Shown: positions 55,452 through 61,689 of the stretch, piece after piece
Layout of the letters: each line of letters starts with the position of its first letter
How positions within the stretch are numbered: the first letter of the stretch is position 1
Assembly: GCF_006337065.1 (NCBI RefSeq)
Contig: NZ_CP040872.1
Span: forward strand, 3,348,001-3,412,000
Source: Agromyces laixinhei
Lineage (GTDB): Bacteria > Actinomycetota > Actinomycetes > Actinomycetales > Microbacteriaceae
Length of the DNA: 64,000 bases
Reading direction: 5' to 3'
Program-made: the position numbers and the translations under genes
Notes under the pieces: model-generated
What the model was told of the DNA's origin: nothing
The model's input: the letters and a program-made list of their open reading frames with translations, nothing else
The model's database searches: none

Positions 55452-57128
55452 GTGACGAGACCCGACCGCGATCGAACCCCTGACCGGCAGCACGACGGAA
55501 ACGCATTCGCGAAGAGGGAGACGACGCCCGCCCCGCCGATGCGTCTCTCCGATGCGTCAGAACTCGTGCTCGTGGCATCCGCCGGTCGGCCGCCCCGTTT
55601 CGATCGCGACGATCTCGTGCTGCGCAAGGGCCAGTACGCGCTGCGCAACGGCCACATGACCCCGCAGGAGTCGATGGCCGAAGACCTGCTCGAGCTCGGC
55701 GCAGCGCTCGACGCCGCCGACATCCCGTTCCTGCTCGTGCGGGGCAACGACGACCGCCCGATCATCGCGGTCGACCGAGCCGAGCGCAAGACCGTGGCCC
55801 GCATCTTCGCCGAGGCCTTCGCCGACGAGCCGTTCTACGCATCGACCCTCGCCCCGAAGCGCGCTGCGCAGACCCACGCAGTGCTGCTCGCCGACGGGCG
55901 GCTCTCGGCCGGGCGCAAGCCCACCGTGCTGCGGGTCTACCGCCCGCGCGTCGAGCCGATCGGTCGCCTGCGCTACGGCAGCGAGACGGGCGTGCAGCTC
56001 GAGTTCTGGCGCTTCGGCGACGAGACCATCGAGGCGCCGGCCGAGAACGTGCTGATGCGCCGCACCCTCCAGCGTTCGGAGACGACCGAAGCCGTCGTGC
56101 ACCTGCACGGACGCGACTGGCCGACCCTCGAGCACATGTGGGAACCCCTCGCGAGCGACGTCGACTTCGAGATCGACATGGTGTTCTCGTGGGTCGACGG
56201 ATCGAACGCCGACTTCGTCCGTGAGCGCGCGAAGCGCATGGCCGACCACGTCGTCGGCGAGGGCGACGACTCCGCGGCCCGATACCGGCAGATCGACGAG
56301 CTGAAGTACGCGCTGCGCTCGGTGCACCTCTTCGCGCCGTGGGTGCGCCGCATCTTCATCGCCACCGACTCCCCCGCACCCGCCTGGCTCGCCAAGCACC
56401 CGAAGGTCACGATCGTGCGCAGCGAAGAGATGTTCGCCGACCCCTCGGTGCTGCCGACGCACAACTCGCACGCGGTCGAGAGCCAGTTGCATCACATCGA
56501 CGGTCTCGCCGAGCACTTCCTCTACTCGAACGACGACATGTTCTTCGGCCGGGCTCTCAGCCCCTCGCTGTTCTTCTCTCCCGGCGGCATCACGAAATTC
56601 GTCGAGGCCGGCACTCGCATCGGACTCGGCCGGGCCCACTCGGGCCGCAGCGGCTTCGAGAACGCAGCCCGCGTGAACCGGGCCCTTCTGCGCGAACGCT
56701 TCGGCAAGGTCACGACGCGCCACCTCGAGCATTGCGCGGCGCCCCTGCGCAAGAGCGTCATGGCCGAGCTCGAGGCCGCGTTCCCCGAGGAGTTCCGCCG
56801 CACGGCCGCGAGCCGCTTCCGCTCGGCGACCGACATCTCGGTGACGAACTCGCTCTACCACTACTACGCGCTGCTCGCCGGGCATGCCGTCGCGCAGACC
56901 GATGCGCGGGTCAAGTACGTCGAGACGACGCTGCGCCAGGCGCTGCCCGCGATGGACGAACTCGTGAAGCACCGCGACCACGACATGTTCTGCTTGAACG
57001 ACGGCAGCTTCCCCGAGATCTCCGACGACGAGCGCATCGCGGCCGTCACCGACTTCCTCGAGCGCTACTTCCCGTTCCCTGCACCGTGGGAGAAGGCGTC
57101 GACGGATGCCTCGGAGCTCATCGCCTGA
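55452..57128 (+). CDS. Stealth-family capsular polysaccharide phosphotransferase
   Basis: This 558-residue protein has the Stealth conserved regions in order: CR1 FEIDMVFSWVDGSNADF (near 240), CR2 DELKYALRSVHLFAPWVRRI (near 282), CR3 HNSHAVESQLHHIDGLAEHF with YSNDDMFFGR (near 337), and CR4 DMFCLNDG (near 511). Stealth enzymes transfer sugar-1-phosphate to build phosphate-linked polysaccharides such as capsules. The first 180 residues are an extra domain that may bind acceptor sugar. The GTG start has GGAGG upstream. The 3' end overlaps the convergent DedA gene by 64 bases. Confidence 0.93.
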   Translation: MTRPDRDRTPDRQHDGNAFAKRETTPAPPMRLSDASELVLVASAGRPPRFDRDDLVLRKGQYALRNGHMTPQESMAEDLLELGAALDAADIPFLLVRGNDDRPIIAVDRAERKTVARIFAEAFADEPFYASTLAPKRAAQTHAVLLADGRLSAGRKPTVLRVYRPRVEPIGRLRYGSETGVQLEFWRFGDETIEAPAENVLMRRTLQRSETTEAVVHLHGRDWPTLEHMWEPLASDVDFEIDMVFSWVDGSNADFVRERAKRMADHVVGEGDDSAARYRQIDELKYALRSVHLFAPWVRRIFIATDSPAPAWLAKHPKVTIVRSEEMFADPSVLPTHNSHAVESQLHHIDGLAEHFLYSNDDMFFGRALSPSLFFSPGGITKFVEAGTRIGLGRAHSGRSGFENAARVNRALLRERFGKVTTRHLEHCAAPLRKSVMAELEAAFPEEFRRTAASRFRSATDISVTNSLYHYYALLAGHAVAQTDARVKYVETTLRQALPAMDELVKHRDHDMFCLNDGSFPEISDDERIAAVTDFLERYFPFPAPWEKASTDASELIA

Positions 57129-57793
57129 GCGCTGACGAGGTCATCGGCGTCACCGCCCGGATCCACCGCGACATCCGCCCGTCTCTGCCCGCCTCGCCCT
57201 CTCAGCCACCGGATCACGAGGTCGACGGCCGCGCCGACGACCGCCGCGAAGACGATCGCGACGACCACGGCGAGGAGCGGCTGGTCGTGCATCCAGTGTC
57301 CGGCGACGAGTCCGATCACCGTCGAGTAGGCCGCCCAGGTCAGCCCCGCGACGGCCGACAACGGAATGAAGCGCCGCCGCGGATACCGGGTCGCCCCGGC
57401 CGTCATGTTGACTGCGATGCGCCCCACCGGAATGTAGCGTGCCGTGAAGATCAGGAGCGCGCCGCGGCGGTCGAGCCCTCGGCTCGCCCACTCGACCGTG
57501 CGCACGACCCTGGCTCTGCGCATCCATCGAAAGCGAGTGAGGCCGATGCGTCGACCTGCCTCGAACGCGATGTTGTCGCCGGCCATCGCGCCGAGAGCGG
57601 CAGCCGCGACGAGCAGGAGCATGTGCGGAGATCCGGTCGATGCCGAGACCGCTGCGGCCGCGACCACGACCGTTTCACTCGGAATCGGCGGAAAGAACCC
57701 GTCGATCAGGCAGACGAGCACGACCACGAAGTAGACCCACGGCGATCCCGCGAGCGTCGCGACGGTGTCGTTCAGCACCTGGATGAGGTCCAT
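57065..57793 (-). CDS. DedA-family membrane protein (SNARE-associated/VTT domain)
   Basis: This 242-residue protein has the DedA motifs IPSETVVVAAAAV, LGAMAGDNIAFEAGRRIG, FTARYIPVGRIAVNMTAGATRYPRRRF and about five to six membrane helices. DedA proteins act in lipid scrambling (undecaprenyl phosphate or phosphatidylethanolamine recycling) and envelope homeostasis. The last codons overlap the Stealth gene, giving both proteins variable tails. AGGA precedes the ATG. Confidence 0.92.
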   Translation of the reverse strand: MDLIQVLNDTVATLAGSPWVYFVVVLVCLIDGFFPPIPSETVVVAAAAVSASTGSPHMLLLVAAAALGAMAGDNIAFEAGRRIGLTRFRWMRRARVVRTVEWASRGLDRRGALLIFTARYIPVGRIAVNMTAGATRYPRRRFIPLSAVAGLTWAAYSTVIGLVAGHWMHDQPLLAVVVAIVFAAVVGAAVDLVIRWLRGRGGQRRADVAVDPGGDADDLVSAQAMSSEASVDAFSHGAGNGK

Positions 57794-57912
57794 GTTCCTG
57801 CTTTCTCTCGAGATCTCCGGAGCCGGCGATCGATGCAGCGGATGCCACGGCCGCACCCCTCACGGCCGACGACCATGCATGACGCTATGAAGCATCCGAC
57901 CGCTTGTGCGCC

Positions 57913-58090
57913 CGACGAACGTCGCCGATCACCCCTGACGTTCGTCAGGGACATGCTCGGGGCCGGCAGGTCGTGGCACGTCCCAAGCCTCGCGTCGGCG
58001 GCGGCCGCGCCCCATCCGGCGGGCGACCGGATCGCCCCGGGGGAATACCCCCGGGTTCTCCGGTCACCGATGCTCCTGACGTTCGTCAGG
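57913..58090. promoter_or_regulatory. Intergenic region with repeated CTGACG-TT-CGTCAG palindromes
   Basis: This is the 331-base gap between the divergent DedA and kinase genes. CCCTGACG-TT-CGTCAGGG (57933-57950) and CCTGACG-TT-CGTCAGG (58075-58090) are near-identical palindromes 141 bases apart, and CGACGAACGTCG (57913-57924) is related. A hairpin CCCGGGGG, AATA, CCCCCGGG lies at 58036-58055. The pair looks like operators of one dimeric regulator, possibly the response regulator encoded downstream. The rest shows no gene. Confidence 0.65.
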
Positions 58091-58112: not shown

Positions 58113-58118
58113 TACGAT
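58113..58118 (+). promoter_or_regulatory. -10 box of leaderless promoter for the kinase gene
   Basis: TACGAT lies six bases before the ATG at 58125, with the second CTGACG palindrome 23 bases upstream. Confidence 0.5.
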
Positions 58119-58124
58119 GAATGG

Positions 58125-59549
58125 ATGCCCGAGCACATTCCCGGCGACGATCGCACCACTCTGCGGAGTGAACTCCCGGGCGCTGCCGCGCTCGTTCTCG
58201 CGACCGCGTCGATGCTGCCGGTCGCACGATGGGGCGACTCGACGGTGCTGCTCTTGATCGTGCCGGCCGCCGCCGCGTCGTACTGGGCCGGCCGGAGGAT
58301 GCACTCGCTCGCCCTGGCGCTGTCGGCGCTGGGCTTCGGCATGCTCGTGGCCCTGCCCGCTTCGTACACCCTGCCGGGAGGCGCTCCGCTCGGCGACTGG
58401 CTGGTCTGCCTCGGGCTCGTGTTCGCGTGTGTCACGCTGCCGTGGTGGATCGGCCGATACCGCCTGCTTCGAGCCGAGCAACGGCGGCGCGACAGCGCCA
58501 TCATCGCCGAGCGCGCGCAGTCCGACGAGCGTGCACGCATCGCCGACGACCTGCACGACACCCTCGGCCACGAACTCGCGCTGATCGCGGTACAGGCGGG
58601 AGCGCTCGAGCTCGATTCCGACGTCGAAGCCGGGCACCGCGATCGGTTCGGCGAGCTCCGGGAAGCAGCCGTGCGAGCGAGCGAGCGCCTCCGCGAGGTC
58701 GTGGCACTCACCCGGAGCCCGGATGAAACGCCGTCGCTCGATCCCGTCGGCCACGGCATCGACGCGCTCGTCGCACGGGCGCGAACCGCGGGCATGGATG
58801 TGCGGTTCACGCACGACGGGGGTGCCCCGCAGAACGGAGAGAGCGGCAGGAGGGTCGCGCCCATCATCCACGAGACGATGCTGCGGATCGTGCGAGAGGG
58901 CCTGACGAACGCGGCACGACATGCACCCGGCGCCATCGTCGACGTCTCGGTCGTGTACGGCGCCGAGACGGTCGAGCTCGGGGTCGTCAACGACGCGTCA
59001 CCGGCCAGCGTGACGGCCGACAGCCCCGGTGGCGGCCACGGCGTGCCGAGTCTTCGCGAACGCGCCCGCCTCGTCGGCGGCACGTTGCGAGCCGAGGCGC
59101 GGCCGTCCGGCGGATTCGAGCTCAGCGCGATGCTCCCCCGAACCTGGACCGCGCCGGCGCTGGAGGCCGGCACCGAACCGGAGTTCGTCTCGAGTGCACG
59201 GTTCGCCCGCAGGCGCCTGCTGCAGACGGCGATCGTGCCCGCGGCGATCGCGGTCGCCATCCTGGTCGCGCTCATCGCCGTGCAGATGGTCACCTACGCC
59301 CAGACCGCCCTCTCGCCCGAGACCTTCGAGTCGCTGCATGTCGGTCAGCCCTCTGACGAGATCGCGCCGCTCCTCCCGCCCGGCGTACCGTCGCCGCCCC
59401 CGATCGTCGACGAGGCGCCGGCACCCGACGGGGCAGACTGCGCGTACTTCTCGGCGAAGCAAGGCTGGCTGCACTTCACGGATGCCACCTACCGCCTCTG
59501 CTTCGCCGACGGGGCGCTGGTCGCGAAAGACCTGCTGGAGGTCGAATGA
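58125..59549 (+). CDS. Sensor histidine kinase with C-terminal membrane helix and outside domain
   Basis: This 474-residue kinase has N-terminal membrane helices (to about residue 110), a HisKA_3 domain with His144 (DDLHDTLGHELA) and a HATPase (REGLTNAARHAPG, SLRERARLVGG, to about 340). Unusually, a further membrane helix (365-390) and a domain of about 80 residues follow. It begins FESLHVGQPSDEIAPLLPPG, like BamE/SmpA-type folds, and carries Cys439 and Cys459. The tail would lie outside the cell. This may be the real sensor, or a partner-binding domain. The stop overlaps the regulator ATG. Confidence 0.9.
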   Translation: MPEHIPGDDRTTLRSELPGAAALVLATASMLPVARWGDSTVLLLIVPAAAASYWAGRRMHSLALALSALGFGMLVALPASYTLPGGAPLGDWLVCLGLVFACVTLPWWIGRYRLLRAEQRRRDSAIIAERAQSDERARIADDLHDTLGHELALIAVQAGALELDSDVEAGHRDRFGELREAAVRASERLREVVALTRSPDETPSLDPVGHGIDALVARARTAGMDVRFTHDGGAPQNGESGRRVAPIIHETMLRIVREGLTNAARHAPGAIVDVSVVYGAETVELGVVNDASPASVTADSPGGGHGVPSLRERARLVGGTLRAEARPSGGFELSAMLPRTWTAPALEAGTEPEFVSSARFARRRLLQTAIVPAAIAVAILVALIAVQMVTYAQTALSPETFESLHVGQPSDEIAPLLPPGVPSPPPIVDEAPAPDGADCAYFSAKQGWLHFTDATYRLCFADGALVAKDLLEVE

Positions 59550-60211
59550 TCCGCGTGGTTCTCGCCGACGACGAGGTCATGATTCGCAGCGGCATCCGCT
59601 CGATCCTCGAGTCGGATCCGCGCATCGAGGTCGTCGCCGAGGCCGGCGACGGCCGCGAGGCGGTCGAGCTCGTGCTGCGACACCGGCCCGACGTCGTCGT
59701 TCTCGACATCCGGATGCCGCTGCTCGACGGCCTCGCAGCGGCCGAAGAACTCGCAGGCGTCGCACCGTCGGCACGGGTCGTCATGCTCACCACATTCGGT
59801 GAACAGGCGTACGTCGAACGCGCACTCGGCGACGGCGCCCTCGGCTTTCTGCTGAAGGCCGCCGACCCACGAGAATTGATCAACGGGGTCTGTGCGGTCG
59901 CGGGCGGCGCCGCCTACCTGTCACCCGAGATCACTCGCCGCGTGATCGCCTCCTACCGCGACCCCGATCGTGCGCGCGAGGCGCGAGCACGCGGCGCGGT
60001 GGCGGCCCTCAGCGAGCGGGAGCGCGACGTGCTCGCCCTGCTCGGCGCGGGCACGACCAACGCGGAGATCGGCTCGAGCCTCCACCTCGTCGAGGGCACG
60101 GTCAAGGGGCATGTGAGCTCGCTCATGCTGAAGCTCGGAGTCCGAAACCGGGTCGAAGCTGCGATCATCGCGCATCACGCGGGCATCGTCGCCGACGGAA
60201 GAGGTGAGTGA
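59546..60211 (+). CDS. LuxR-family response regulator
   Basis: This 221-residue regulator has D8-D9, phospho-acceptor D54 (VVLDIRMPLL), K104 and a C-terminal LuxR domain (LSERERDVLALLGAGTTNAEIGSSLHLVEGTVKGHVSSLM). It is the partner of the preceding kinase with a four-base overlap. The CTGACG palindromes upstream of the pair are candidate targets. It converges on cls with five bases between the stops. Confidence 0.94.
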   Translation: MIRVVLADDEVMIRSGIRSILESDPRIEVVAEAGDGREAVELVLRHRPDVVVLDIRMPLLDGLAAAEELAGVAPSARVVMLTTFGEQAYVERALGDGALGFLLKAADPRELINGVCAVAGGAAYLSPEITRRVIASYRDPDRAREARARGAVAALSERERDVLALLGAGTTNAEIGSSLHLVEGTVKGHVSSLMLKLGVRNRVEAAIIAHHAGIVADGRGE

Positions 60212-60216
60212 GCGCG

Positions 60217-61689
60217 CTACTGCAGCGCCGAGGTGAGGCGCGCGACGCCGTCGAGGAACGTCGCAGAACCCGGCTCGCGTTCCCATTCCTCGAGGGTCAG
60301 CTGGCGGCCCGCATCGCGATAGCCCTGCTCGACGGCGCGCATCTGCCGGACGAACGAGCGGCCGCGCACGAGCAGCGAGACCTCGGAGTTCAGGCTGAAC
60401 GAGCGGATGTCCATGTTGCTCGACCCGATCACGGCGACGTCGTCGTCGATCGAGAGGTGCTTCGAGTGCAGGATGTACGGGCCGGGGTAGAGCCAGATCT
60501 TCACGCCCGCCTGCAGCAGCGCGCGGTAGTACGAGCGCTGTGCATGCCAGACGGAGCCCTGGTCGCCGATCTCCGAGACGAAGAGCTGCACGTCGAGTCC
60601 GCGGTAGCAGGCCGAGGTGATCGCGTAGAGCATCGCCTCGTCGGGCACGAAGTACGGGCTCGTGATGATCGCCTGCCGCTGCGCCGAGTTGATGAGCGTG
60701 AGGAAGAGGCGCAGGCCGTTCTCGGCGTCGTAGCCGGGGCCGCTCGGCACGACCTGGCAGACGAGCGAGTCGGGTGAGGCGTCGGCGGGCACGGCCGCGG
60801 CCGGCACGTTCTCCTCCTCACCGAGCAGCTCGTCGGTCTCGAGGTACCAGTCGGAGAGGAACACGGTGTTGACGGCGGTCACGACCGGGCCCGTGACGCG
60901 GGTCACGAGCTCTTGCCACATGAGCCCGCGCTTGATGTTCTTCGGCGAGTTGTAGCTGCGGGCGATGAGGTTCTGCGACCCCATGAAGCCGACGTTCCCG
61001 TCGACGACGACGAGCTTGCGGTGGTTGCGGAGGTCGGGCCGCTGGTACTGCCCCTTGAGCGGGCGCACCGGCAGCATCGAACTCCACTTCGCGCCGATGC
61101 GGTCGAGCTCTGCGTAGGTCGCATCGTGGCCGGCTGTGCGGTTCGTGGCGACGGCGTCGAGCAGCACGCGCACGGTGACGCCGCGCGCGGCGGCACGCTC
61201 CATCGCCGCGAAGAAGCCCCTCGTGGTGTCGTCGAACGAGACGATGTAGAACTCGACGTGCACGAAACGGGTGGCGGTGTCGATCTCGGCCGCCATGGCG
61301 TCGATCGAGGTCTGATAGTCGCCGATGAGCTCGGCCGTGTTGCCGCCGACGGCGGGCAGTGCGCCGAGGGTGCGGTTCTGCTCGGTGAGCGTGGCGAACC
61401 ACTCGGGCCACGTCGCGCGGTCGGGGGCGAGGTCGACGCCCTCGGCACGTGCGGCGATCATGGCGTTGATCTCGTGCTGCTTCTCACGCCGCTTCTTCGG
61501 CAGCTTCACGCTGCCGATGAGGAGGAAGAAGAGGATGCCGACGAAGGGGATCAGGAAGATCGCGAGCAGCCACGCCATCGCGGCGGTGGGCTTGCGCCCC
61601 CGGGGCACGATGATCAGCGCAGCGATGCGGATGGCGAGGTCTGCCAGTATCAGCACGCCTCCGATGATCGCGGCGAGCTCCGTGCTCAT
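60217..61689 (-). CDS. cls: Cardiolipin synthase, phospholipase D type
   Basis: This 490-residue protein has two N-terminal membrane helices (GGVLILADLAIRIAALIIV, MAWLLAIFLIPFVGILFFLLIG) and two HKD motifs (HRKLVVVDGNVGFMGSQNL, HSKHLSIDDDVAVIGSSNMD). It condenses phosphatidylglycerol molecules to cardiolipin in the membrane. A GGGGAGG ribosome site precedes the ATG. A GC palindrome (CCGCCCGG with CCGGGCGG, 61773-61788) lies upstream in the gap. Confidence 0.95.
   Translation of the reverse strand: MSTELAAIIGGVLILADLAIRIAALIIVPRGRKPTAAMAWLLAIFLIPFVGILFFLLIGSVKLPKKRREKQHEINAMIAARAEGVDLAPDRATWPEWFATLTEQNRTLGALPAVGGNTAELIGDYQTSIDAMAAEIDTATRFVHVEFYIVSFDDTTRGFFAAMERAAARGVTVRVLLDAVATNRTAGHDATYAELDRIGAKWSSMLPVRPLKGQYQRPDLRNHRKLVVVDGNVGFMGSQNLIARSYNSPKNIKRGLMWQELVTRVTGPVVTAVNTVFLSDWYLETDELLGEEENVPAAAVPADASPDSLVCQVVPSGPGYDAENGLRLFLTLINSAQRQAIITSPYFVPDEAMLYAITSACYRGLDVQLFVSEIGDQGSVWHAQRSYYRALLQAGVKIWLYPGPYILHSKHLSIDDDVAVIGSSNMDIRSFSLNSEVSLLVRGRSFVRQMRAVEQGYRDAGRQLTLEEWEREPGSATFLDGVARLTSALQ

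Follow-up and report, generated by a model that had tools for sequence, protein, structure and literature searches.

The window, by which is meant the whole 64,000-nucleotide stretch of DNA that was analysed, very probably encodes a further two-component system of the AbsA1 type, lying back to back with a DedA gene. Its kinase is proposed to receive a signal through a domain outside the cell that follows the ATPase domain, and to act through a LuxR-type regulator on its own operon and on the DedA gene. We estimate the probability of this reading as a whole, mechanism included, at roughly 0.6. The tail-bearing layout is already known from AbsA1, of which the window system is another example. 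What appears to be new is that kinases with this tail adjoin genes of the undecaprenyl-phosphate cycle (DedA, PAP2) or an ABC exporter. This proposed family-wide link to the carrier lipid is the most noteworthy outcome, together with a locus compact enough for testing. The locus contains a predicted operator and a predicted target gene, and the tail of its kinase has set boundaries (residues 394-474) and a conserved pair of cysteines.

A kinase that continues past its ATPase domain

The kinase (474 amino acids; 58125..59549, plus strand), assigned from the open reading frame list, Pfam, homologues and a tree, is built of N-terminal helices, a catalytic core, a last helix and an outside domain. 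The N-terminal helices span residues 16-110 (58170..58454, plus strand). Hydropathy gives three segments, 16-34 (1.46), 61-79 (1.93) and about 87-110 (1.9), and an extra one of the four helices, at roughly 41-57, was read by eye. The core is of the NarL type, with a HisKA_3 domain at residues 135-199 (58527..58721, plus strand; Pfam E 9.6e-12), in which His144 is the phospho-accepting residue by motif, and a HATPase_c domain at residues 252-339 (58878..59141, plus strand). The latter was recognised by Pfam and by NCBIfam NarQ/NarX-type models, both below cut-off (20.1 bits against 26.4 in Pfam), and a weak hydropathy call at 270-288 (1.43) falls within it. Kinases of the LiaS/VraS and NarX/NarQ types have the same HisKA_3 and HATPase core. 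The cut-offs of the NCBIfam curated models were all missed by far, including that of the LiaS equivalog (27 bits against 450). Also, the LiaS/VraS and NarX/NarQ-type models stop at the ATPase domain, whereas the window kinase goes on.

What follows the ATPase domain is a linker, a membrane helix at residues 368-386 (59226..59282, plus strand) with ARFARRRLLQ just before it, and about 88 residues that include two cysteines. At 2.77 the helix is the hydropathy maximum of the kinase. The tail domain, delimited by alignment and hydropathy, covers residues 394-474 (59304..59546, plus strand), and its cysteines are C439 (59439-59441) and C459 (59499-59501). No Pfam family matched the last 116 residues of the kinase, and the tail drew no family from Pfam, NCBIfam or PDB profiles.

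The same features recur among the 92 tail proteins called in related loci. The helix was found in 91 of them, the exception being L087_4, which is the same gene as L048, and all 91 helix-bearing tails have exactly two cysteines C-terminal to the helix. The pair is invariant in an alignment of 39 tails, from which L048 (it has no first cysteine), the near-duplicates L032, L033 and L046, and L063 (its reading frame extends beyond the tail) were left out. Lysine and arginine average 4.4 in the 12 residues before the helix and 0.64 in the 12 after it (91 tails), with the excess before the helix in 83 tails and equality in the other 8. This bias across the last helix places the core in the cytoplasm and the tail outside, and an outside location of the tail domain is predicted with high confidence. 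Together, the cysteine pair and the charge bias fit a disulphide-closed outside domain joined to a cytoplasmic core. The earlier note, working from the window alone, had described a further helix in the membrane following the ATPase domain, two cysteines in a domain on the outside and a catalytic core clamped between membrane segments, and the family bears out each of these points. A twin-arginine-like motif precedes the last helix in 43 of the 92 tails. The idea of a Tat signal is not favoured, since positive charges on the inner side explain the motif equally well.

Fold of the tail

The tail had also been said to begin like a BamE/SmpA fold, and here the result is mixed. In profile-profile comparisons the two repeats of BLIP scored 26.8 and 23.2 against the tail, higher than any of 150 column shuffles or of 189 real windows of unrelated profiles (maximum 20.2). 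The corresponding probabilities were only 55 and 25%, against 97% for the BLIP repeats compared with each other, and BamE of E. coli itself scored 19.7, within the control range. BLIP was the best among the PDB profile matches to the tail, at an E value of about 1, and neither Pfam BamE (PF04355) nor BLIP (PF07467) was listed for any of the 39 tails at E<=0.1. The genome that holds the window gave no BamE match. A single-sequence model of the tail, which is poor (pLDDT 63), ends in three strands, and its structure matches, BamE and BLIP chains among them, were non-significant. The BLIP and BamE/SmpA folds have no significant sequence match to the tail and share with it an order of motifs, F..l.vG....v...l and then strands ending in F.dG.L..K. 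Unlike both, the tail has one repeat, a membrane anchor and two cysteines only. A BamE/BLIP-like fold is thus weakly suggested, as a lead.

Relationship to AbsA1

In AbsA1 of Streptomyces coelicolor, according to excerpts of two reviews, the C-terminus is extracellular and there are four N-terminal helices and one C-terminal helix (PMC9739842, PMC3881020). The layout was mapped by eGFP fusions, a result of McKenzie and Nodwell (2009) that we cite by way of the same excerpts (PMC3881020, PMC9739842). AbsA1 orthologues were recognised by the published site upstream of absA1 and by gene order, and they stand in here for the S. coelicolor protein. The site is the ScbR-bound sequence listed for sco3224-3225(absA1) in an excerpt of PMC4595836. 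Its 22-mer had an exact match in 3 of 271 Streptomyces-type genomes, a label for that genus which is our inference from this match to the S. coelicolor site. Each match is situated at the 5' end of a gene for a tail kinase of 571-576 amino acids and falls 24 bases inside the longest frame, the start of which may lie too far upstream. All three loci have a divergent ABC ATPase gene and, downstream, a gene for a 222-amino-acid regulator. The divergent gene of S. coelicolor, SCO3224, encodes an ABC ATPase and is termed a 'putative CDA resistance gene' (PMC6457490).

The three orthologues are among the best matches of the tail profile in the Streptomyces-type search. They are 40-41% identical to the window kinase over 451 columns, and 40-41% over the 117 columns of the tail alone. 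All four kinases fall into one clade of 15 rows (support 99/96), some of which are long-branched, and the window regulator is 58% identical to the regulators in the AbsA2 position. By these sequence comparisons the window kinase can be assigned to the AbsA1 clade with considerable confidence. The system thus shares with AbsA1/AbsA2 (SCO3225/SCO3226) a NarL-type kinase with a helix and an extracellular domain after the ATPase domain, a LuxR-type regulator downstream, a homologous tail and a common clade. The loci differ in the divergent gene, which is the ABC ATPase gene SCO3224 beside AbsA1 and a DedA gene in the window.

Genes adjoining the tail kinases

The regulator gene (59546..60211, plus strand), with a receiver and a LuxR/GerE DNA-binding domain by Pfam, overlaps the kinase stop codon with its start (ATGA). 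Divergent from the kinase lies a gene for a DedA/VTT-family membrane protein (57065..57856, minus strand; Pfam VTT_dom E 8.6e-19), whose true start is perhaps near 57793, judged by eye from the starts in relatives. Its VTT domain has the conserved Glu and Arg...Arg motifs, and FFPPIPSE and ARYIPVGR are both present in 6/6 linked homologues. The match to E32/R112/R118 of UptA is one of motif and spacing, made without an alignment. DedA proteins are described as flippases that recycle undecaprenyl phosphate (excerpts of PMC9876793, PMC12893004 and PMC11474028), and DedA/UptA as binding undecaprenyl phosphate in competition with amphomycin (excerpt of PMC11474028).

Neighbours were surveyed in 96 loci, in which genes were called by a simple frame-composition script and grouped by BLAST. 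The counts leave out L098, L174, L179, L184, L188, L194, L201 and L222, where no tail gene was called, and loci L225-L231 lie outside the analysis. A regulator is found within three genes of 54 of the 92 tails and directly downstream of 47. A VTT gene is directly divergent from six: the window, G240, G023, G021 and two Streptomyces-type loci. On the tree the DedA label marks two separate supported clades and, with less certainty, L072. It requires three changes, although one gain and two losses would fit too. Genomes hold 5-8 VTT genes (13 genomes).

PAP2 proteins are known as pyrophosphate phosphatases that recycle undecaprenyl phosphate, and are unrelated to DedA proteins. A PAP2 gene lies within 3.5 kb of 31/62 Streptomyces-type tails, against 1/30 others. 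In Streptomyces-type loci all 31 copies of the PAP2 group lie no further than 2.5 kb from the kinase. Nine Streptomyces-type genomes hold 10-14 PAP2 genes each, from which our own arithmetic gives an expectation of about 0.4 in that space. The catalytic motifs are present in 37/37 PAP2 neighbours if the expression is relaxed at one non-catalytic position (18/37 with the stricter version), and Pfam confirmed PAP2 in 3/3 neighbours scanned. Not every PAP2 protein acts on the undecaprenyl carrier lipid. Furthermore, an ABC-2 type permease and its ATPase are encoded near 9/62 Streptomyces-type and 4/30 other tails. On the tree, the clustering of the PAP2, ABC and DedA labels exceeds that in 500 shuffles. 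None of the three neighbour types accompanies 33 of the 81 kinases on the tree, 16 of which form one deep clade.

Some other neighbours deserve mention. The kinase-regulator-PAP2 set is seen with the same two further genes in many Streptomyces-type loci, and in L171, L187, L189, L198, L209 and L211 we take these to be MutY-like and ECF-sigma-like. In the window, the gene convergent with and downstream of the regulator (60217-61689, minus strand) is presumably cardiolipin synthase-like, judging from its phospholipase-D-type motifs. Beyond the DedA gene, an open reading frame (55452-57128, plus strand) contains DMVFSWVDGSN and resembles, we assume, Stealth-type sugar-phosphate transferases.

A palindrome between the DedA and kinase genes

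The region between the two divergent genes holds two copies of the palindrome CCTGACGTTCGTCAGG, found by repeat search, one on the DedA side (57934..57949) and the other 24 bases before the putative kinase -10 element (58075..58090). That element, TACGAT (58113..58118, plus strand), lies 7 bases before the kinase ATG at a spacing shared with relatives, and the kinase transcript is probably nearly leaderless. The 14-base core, CTGACNTTCGTCAG, occurs perfectly just twice in the whole genome, at these two places. Eight sites elsewhere in the genome have one mismatch, and the six inspected all lie within predicted coding frames, which suggests that the regulon is small.

Sites of the form TGACNTTCGTC occur 10 times upstream of 8 of the 92 tails, where 0.69 would be expected from the loci overall, and the loci concerned are of the DedA, ABC and PAP2 types. 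In seven of these eight loci (the window and six relatives) TANNNT follows the site at 24-25 bases, a spacing matched at 16 of 15,420 positions tried by chance in the same loci. Such a fixed distance to the -10 element puts the site near -42, as with an activator that touches the polymerase. The upstream regions of the other 84 tails, including those of the AbsA1 orthologues, gave no palindrome. With two mismatches allowed, the window has 3 sites against 1.08 expected, and 8 of 100 shuffles had as many, so that the palindrome is not enriched there over shuffled sequence. Sites and reversed controls in four related genomes number 10/5, 8/3, 3/5 and 4/2, an excess that is slight or absent. Overall, there is a good chance that the palindrome is the operator and the DedA gene a target, and the output of the system is likely the DedA gene together with its own operon. 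Between the two copies there is also a second perfect inverted repeat, CCCGGGGGAATACCCCCGGG, at 58036-58055.

Proposed mechanism and alternatives

In the proposed mechanism, the kinase would be anchored at both ends, with the last helix carrying the small disulphide-closed domain outward. We infer that the tail is the sensor, with reception of the signal likeliest in the outside domain, and that the signal would travel along the last helix toward the ATPase side of the core, not by way of the N-terminal helices. The kinase would then phosphorylate the adjacent LuxR-type regulator, as is suggested by the overlap of the two genes and by their family. The regulator would bind TGAC-N-TTCGTCA at a site centred near -42 to activate its own operon, and activate the divergent DedA gene through the second copy of the palindrome.

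The signal would be trouble in the undecaprenyl-phosphate cycle, sensed as the lipid itself or as an antibiotic that seizes it. This is suggested by the DedA gene here and by the PAP2-type phosphatases or ABC exporter beside relatives, and the main argument is that two unrelated steps of undecaprenyl-phosphate handling are encoded beside one family of sensors. The candidate signal is carrier-lipid or lipopeptide stress, and its link to the carrier lipid is held tentatively, at a little under even odds. Broader still, and doubtful, is the generalization that AbsA1-type kinases serve actinobacteria at large as sensors of the carrier cycle, with tails that detect the lipid, or antibiotics that have bound it, and with DedA flippases, PAP2 proteins and exporters as outputs. 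If true, it would explain why AbsA1 is located within a lipopeptide antibiotic gene cluster, and the comparison offers trouble with the cell-wall lipid carrier as a testable candidate for the signal of AbsA1. To our knowledge, AbsA1 is known as a repressor of antibiotic genes, not as acting through envelope genes. Our literature search found no paper that treats AbsA1 together with undecaprenyl, and the entries listed on BamE and kinases, DedA and two-component systems, C-terminal sensors, and BLIP and kinases pointed to no such link.

The tail might instead bind or anchor a partner and read the neighbouring membrane protein (DedA, PAP2 or ABC exporter), much as BceS-type kinases read the state of their transporter. 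That different branches of the family are linked to different membrane-protein genes, and that the domain also occurs free-standing, once after an OmpR-type regulator and kinase (L085), would suit such a role. The neighbours are, however, mutually unrelated, so that one partner surface would be unfit for all, and the tail is conserved in the 33/81 kinases that have none of the three. We consider this unlikely, though the most plausible of the alternatives.

AbsA1/A2 represses antibiotic clusters in S. coelicolor (excerpts of PMC9739842 and PMC6457490), and the window system could likewise control secondary metabolism, with DedA an incidental neighbour. Both perfect palindromes, however, sit between DedA and the kinase, the six inspected one-mismatch sites are all within coding frames, and the DedA linkage recurs in four family and two Streptomyces-type loci. 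The idea therefore seems improbable. Slightly less probable again is that the cysteine pair acts as a redox switch by which the kinase senses external oxidative or disulphide stress. The exact count of two cysteines after the helix in 91/91 tails would agree with a switch, but the simplest account of an invariant cysteine pair in a secreted domain of small size is a structural disulphide, and there are no redox genes among the neighbours.

Distribution of the tail

A last alternative is that the fusion arose through faulty assembly or annotation and that the tail belongs to a separate gene, an objection that free-standing tails (e.g., L084_9, L085_5 and L220_6) might seem to invite and that unbroken frames in many independent genomes refute almost entirely. 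The homologue search which the earlier note had named as a check found core, helix and tail together in the independent genomes G023, G021 and G107 and in G240 of the same genus. The window's own genome has 18 matches to the kinase, and the tail profile matches the window kinase only. A first search of the family with the tail gave matches in 13 of 199 genomes at E<=0.01, among which the real relatives beyond the own genome are G023, G021 and G107; the weak loci L013, L014, L016, L020, L021 and L022 proved unrelated on inspection. The name Microbacteriaceae for the family of these relatives is our inference.

With a profile of four tails, matches at E<=0.001 came from 6/398 family, 20/297 order and 7/396 phylum genomes, one of the last (G873) being an unrelated protein. 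Occurrence in the genus of the window is patchy, at 2 of the 10 genomes listed. The 39-tail profile found the tail in 204 of 343 Streptomyces-type genomes at E<=1e-6, fused and free-standing tails counted together. Thus a domain without a Pfam family is nevertheless present in over half of the Streptomyces-type genomes sampled, and the topology that had been called rare at first, which AbsA1 also has according to the excerpts cited above, is not so. A plasmid search yielded two Streptomyces kinases (E 0.04 and 0.8), and a search of viral contigs found no relative. A contig scan with the whole kinase had a sole match, L024, which is a 15-residue chance match in an unrelated frame.

Certain copies are irregular. 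The G107 kinase (L102, G107:C6) lies near a contig end with part of its N-terminus apparently missing, and the open reading frame directly adjoining it is, we presume, transposase-like. At L073 (G318), beside an ABC ATPase gene and a regulator gene, the tail kinase frame has only 225 amino acids, for which either a broken gene or an error in the sequence may account.

The fused form dominates, with 81 of the 92 called tail proteins having at least 400 amino acids and 11 fewer than 200. The short ones include fragments at locus ends or in broken frames (L100_17, L073_9) as well as free-standing genes. As a small free-standing membrane protein, the tail is encoded at L083:6279-6716, L084:6782-7141 and L085:6035-6394, and in L085 it comes just 3' of the genes for an OmpR-type regulator and a kinase. 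More such proteins are encoded at L220:6584-6940, L223:6437-6853 and L224:6438-6989, each opposite a gene that we take to be of the universal-stress type.
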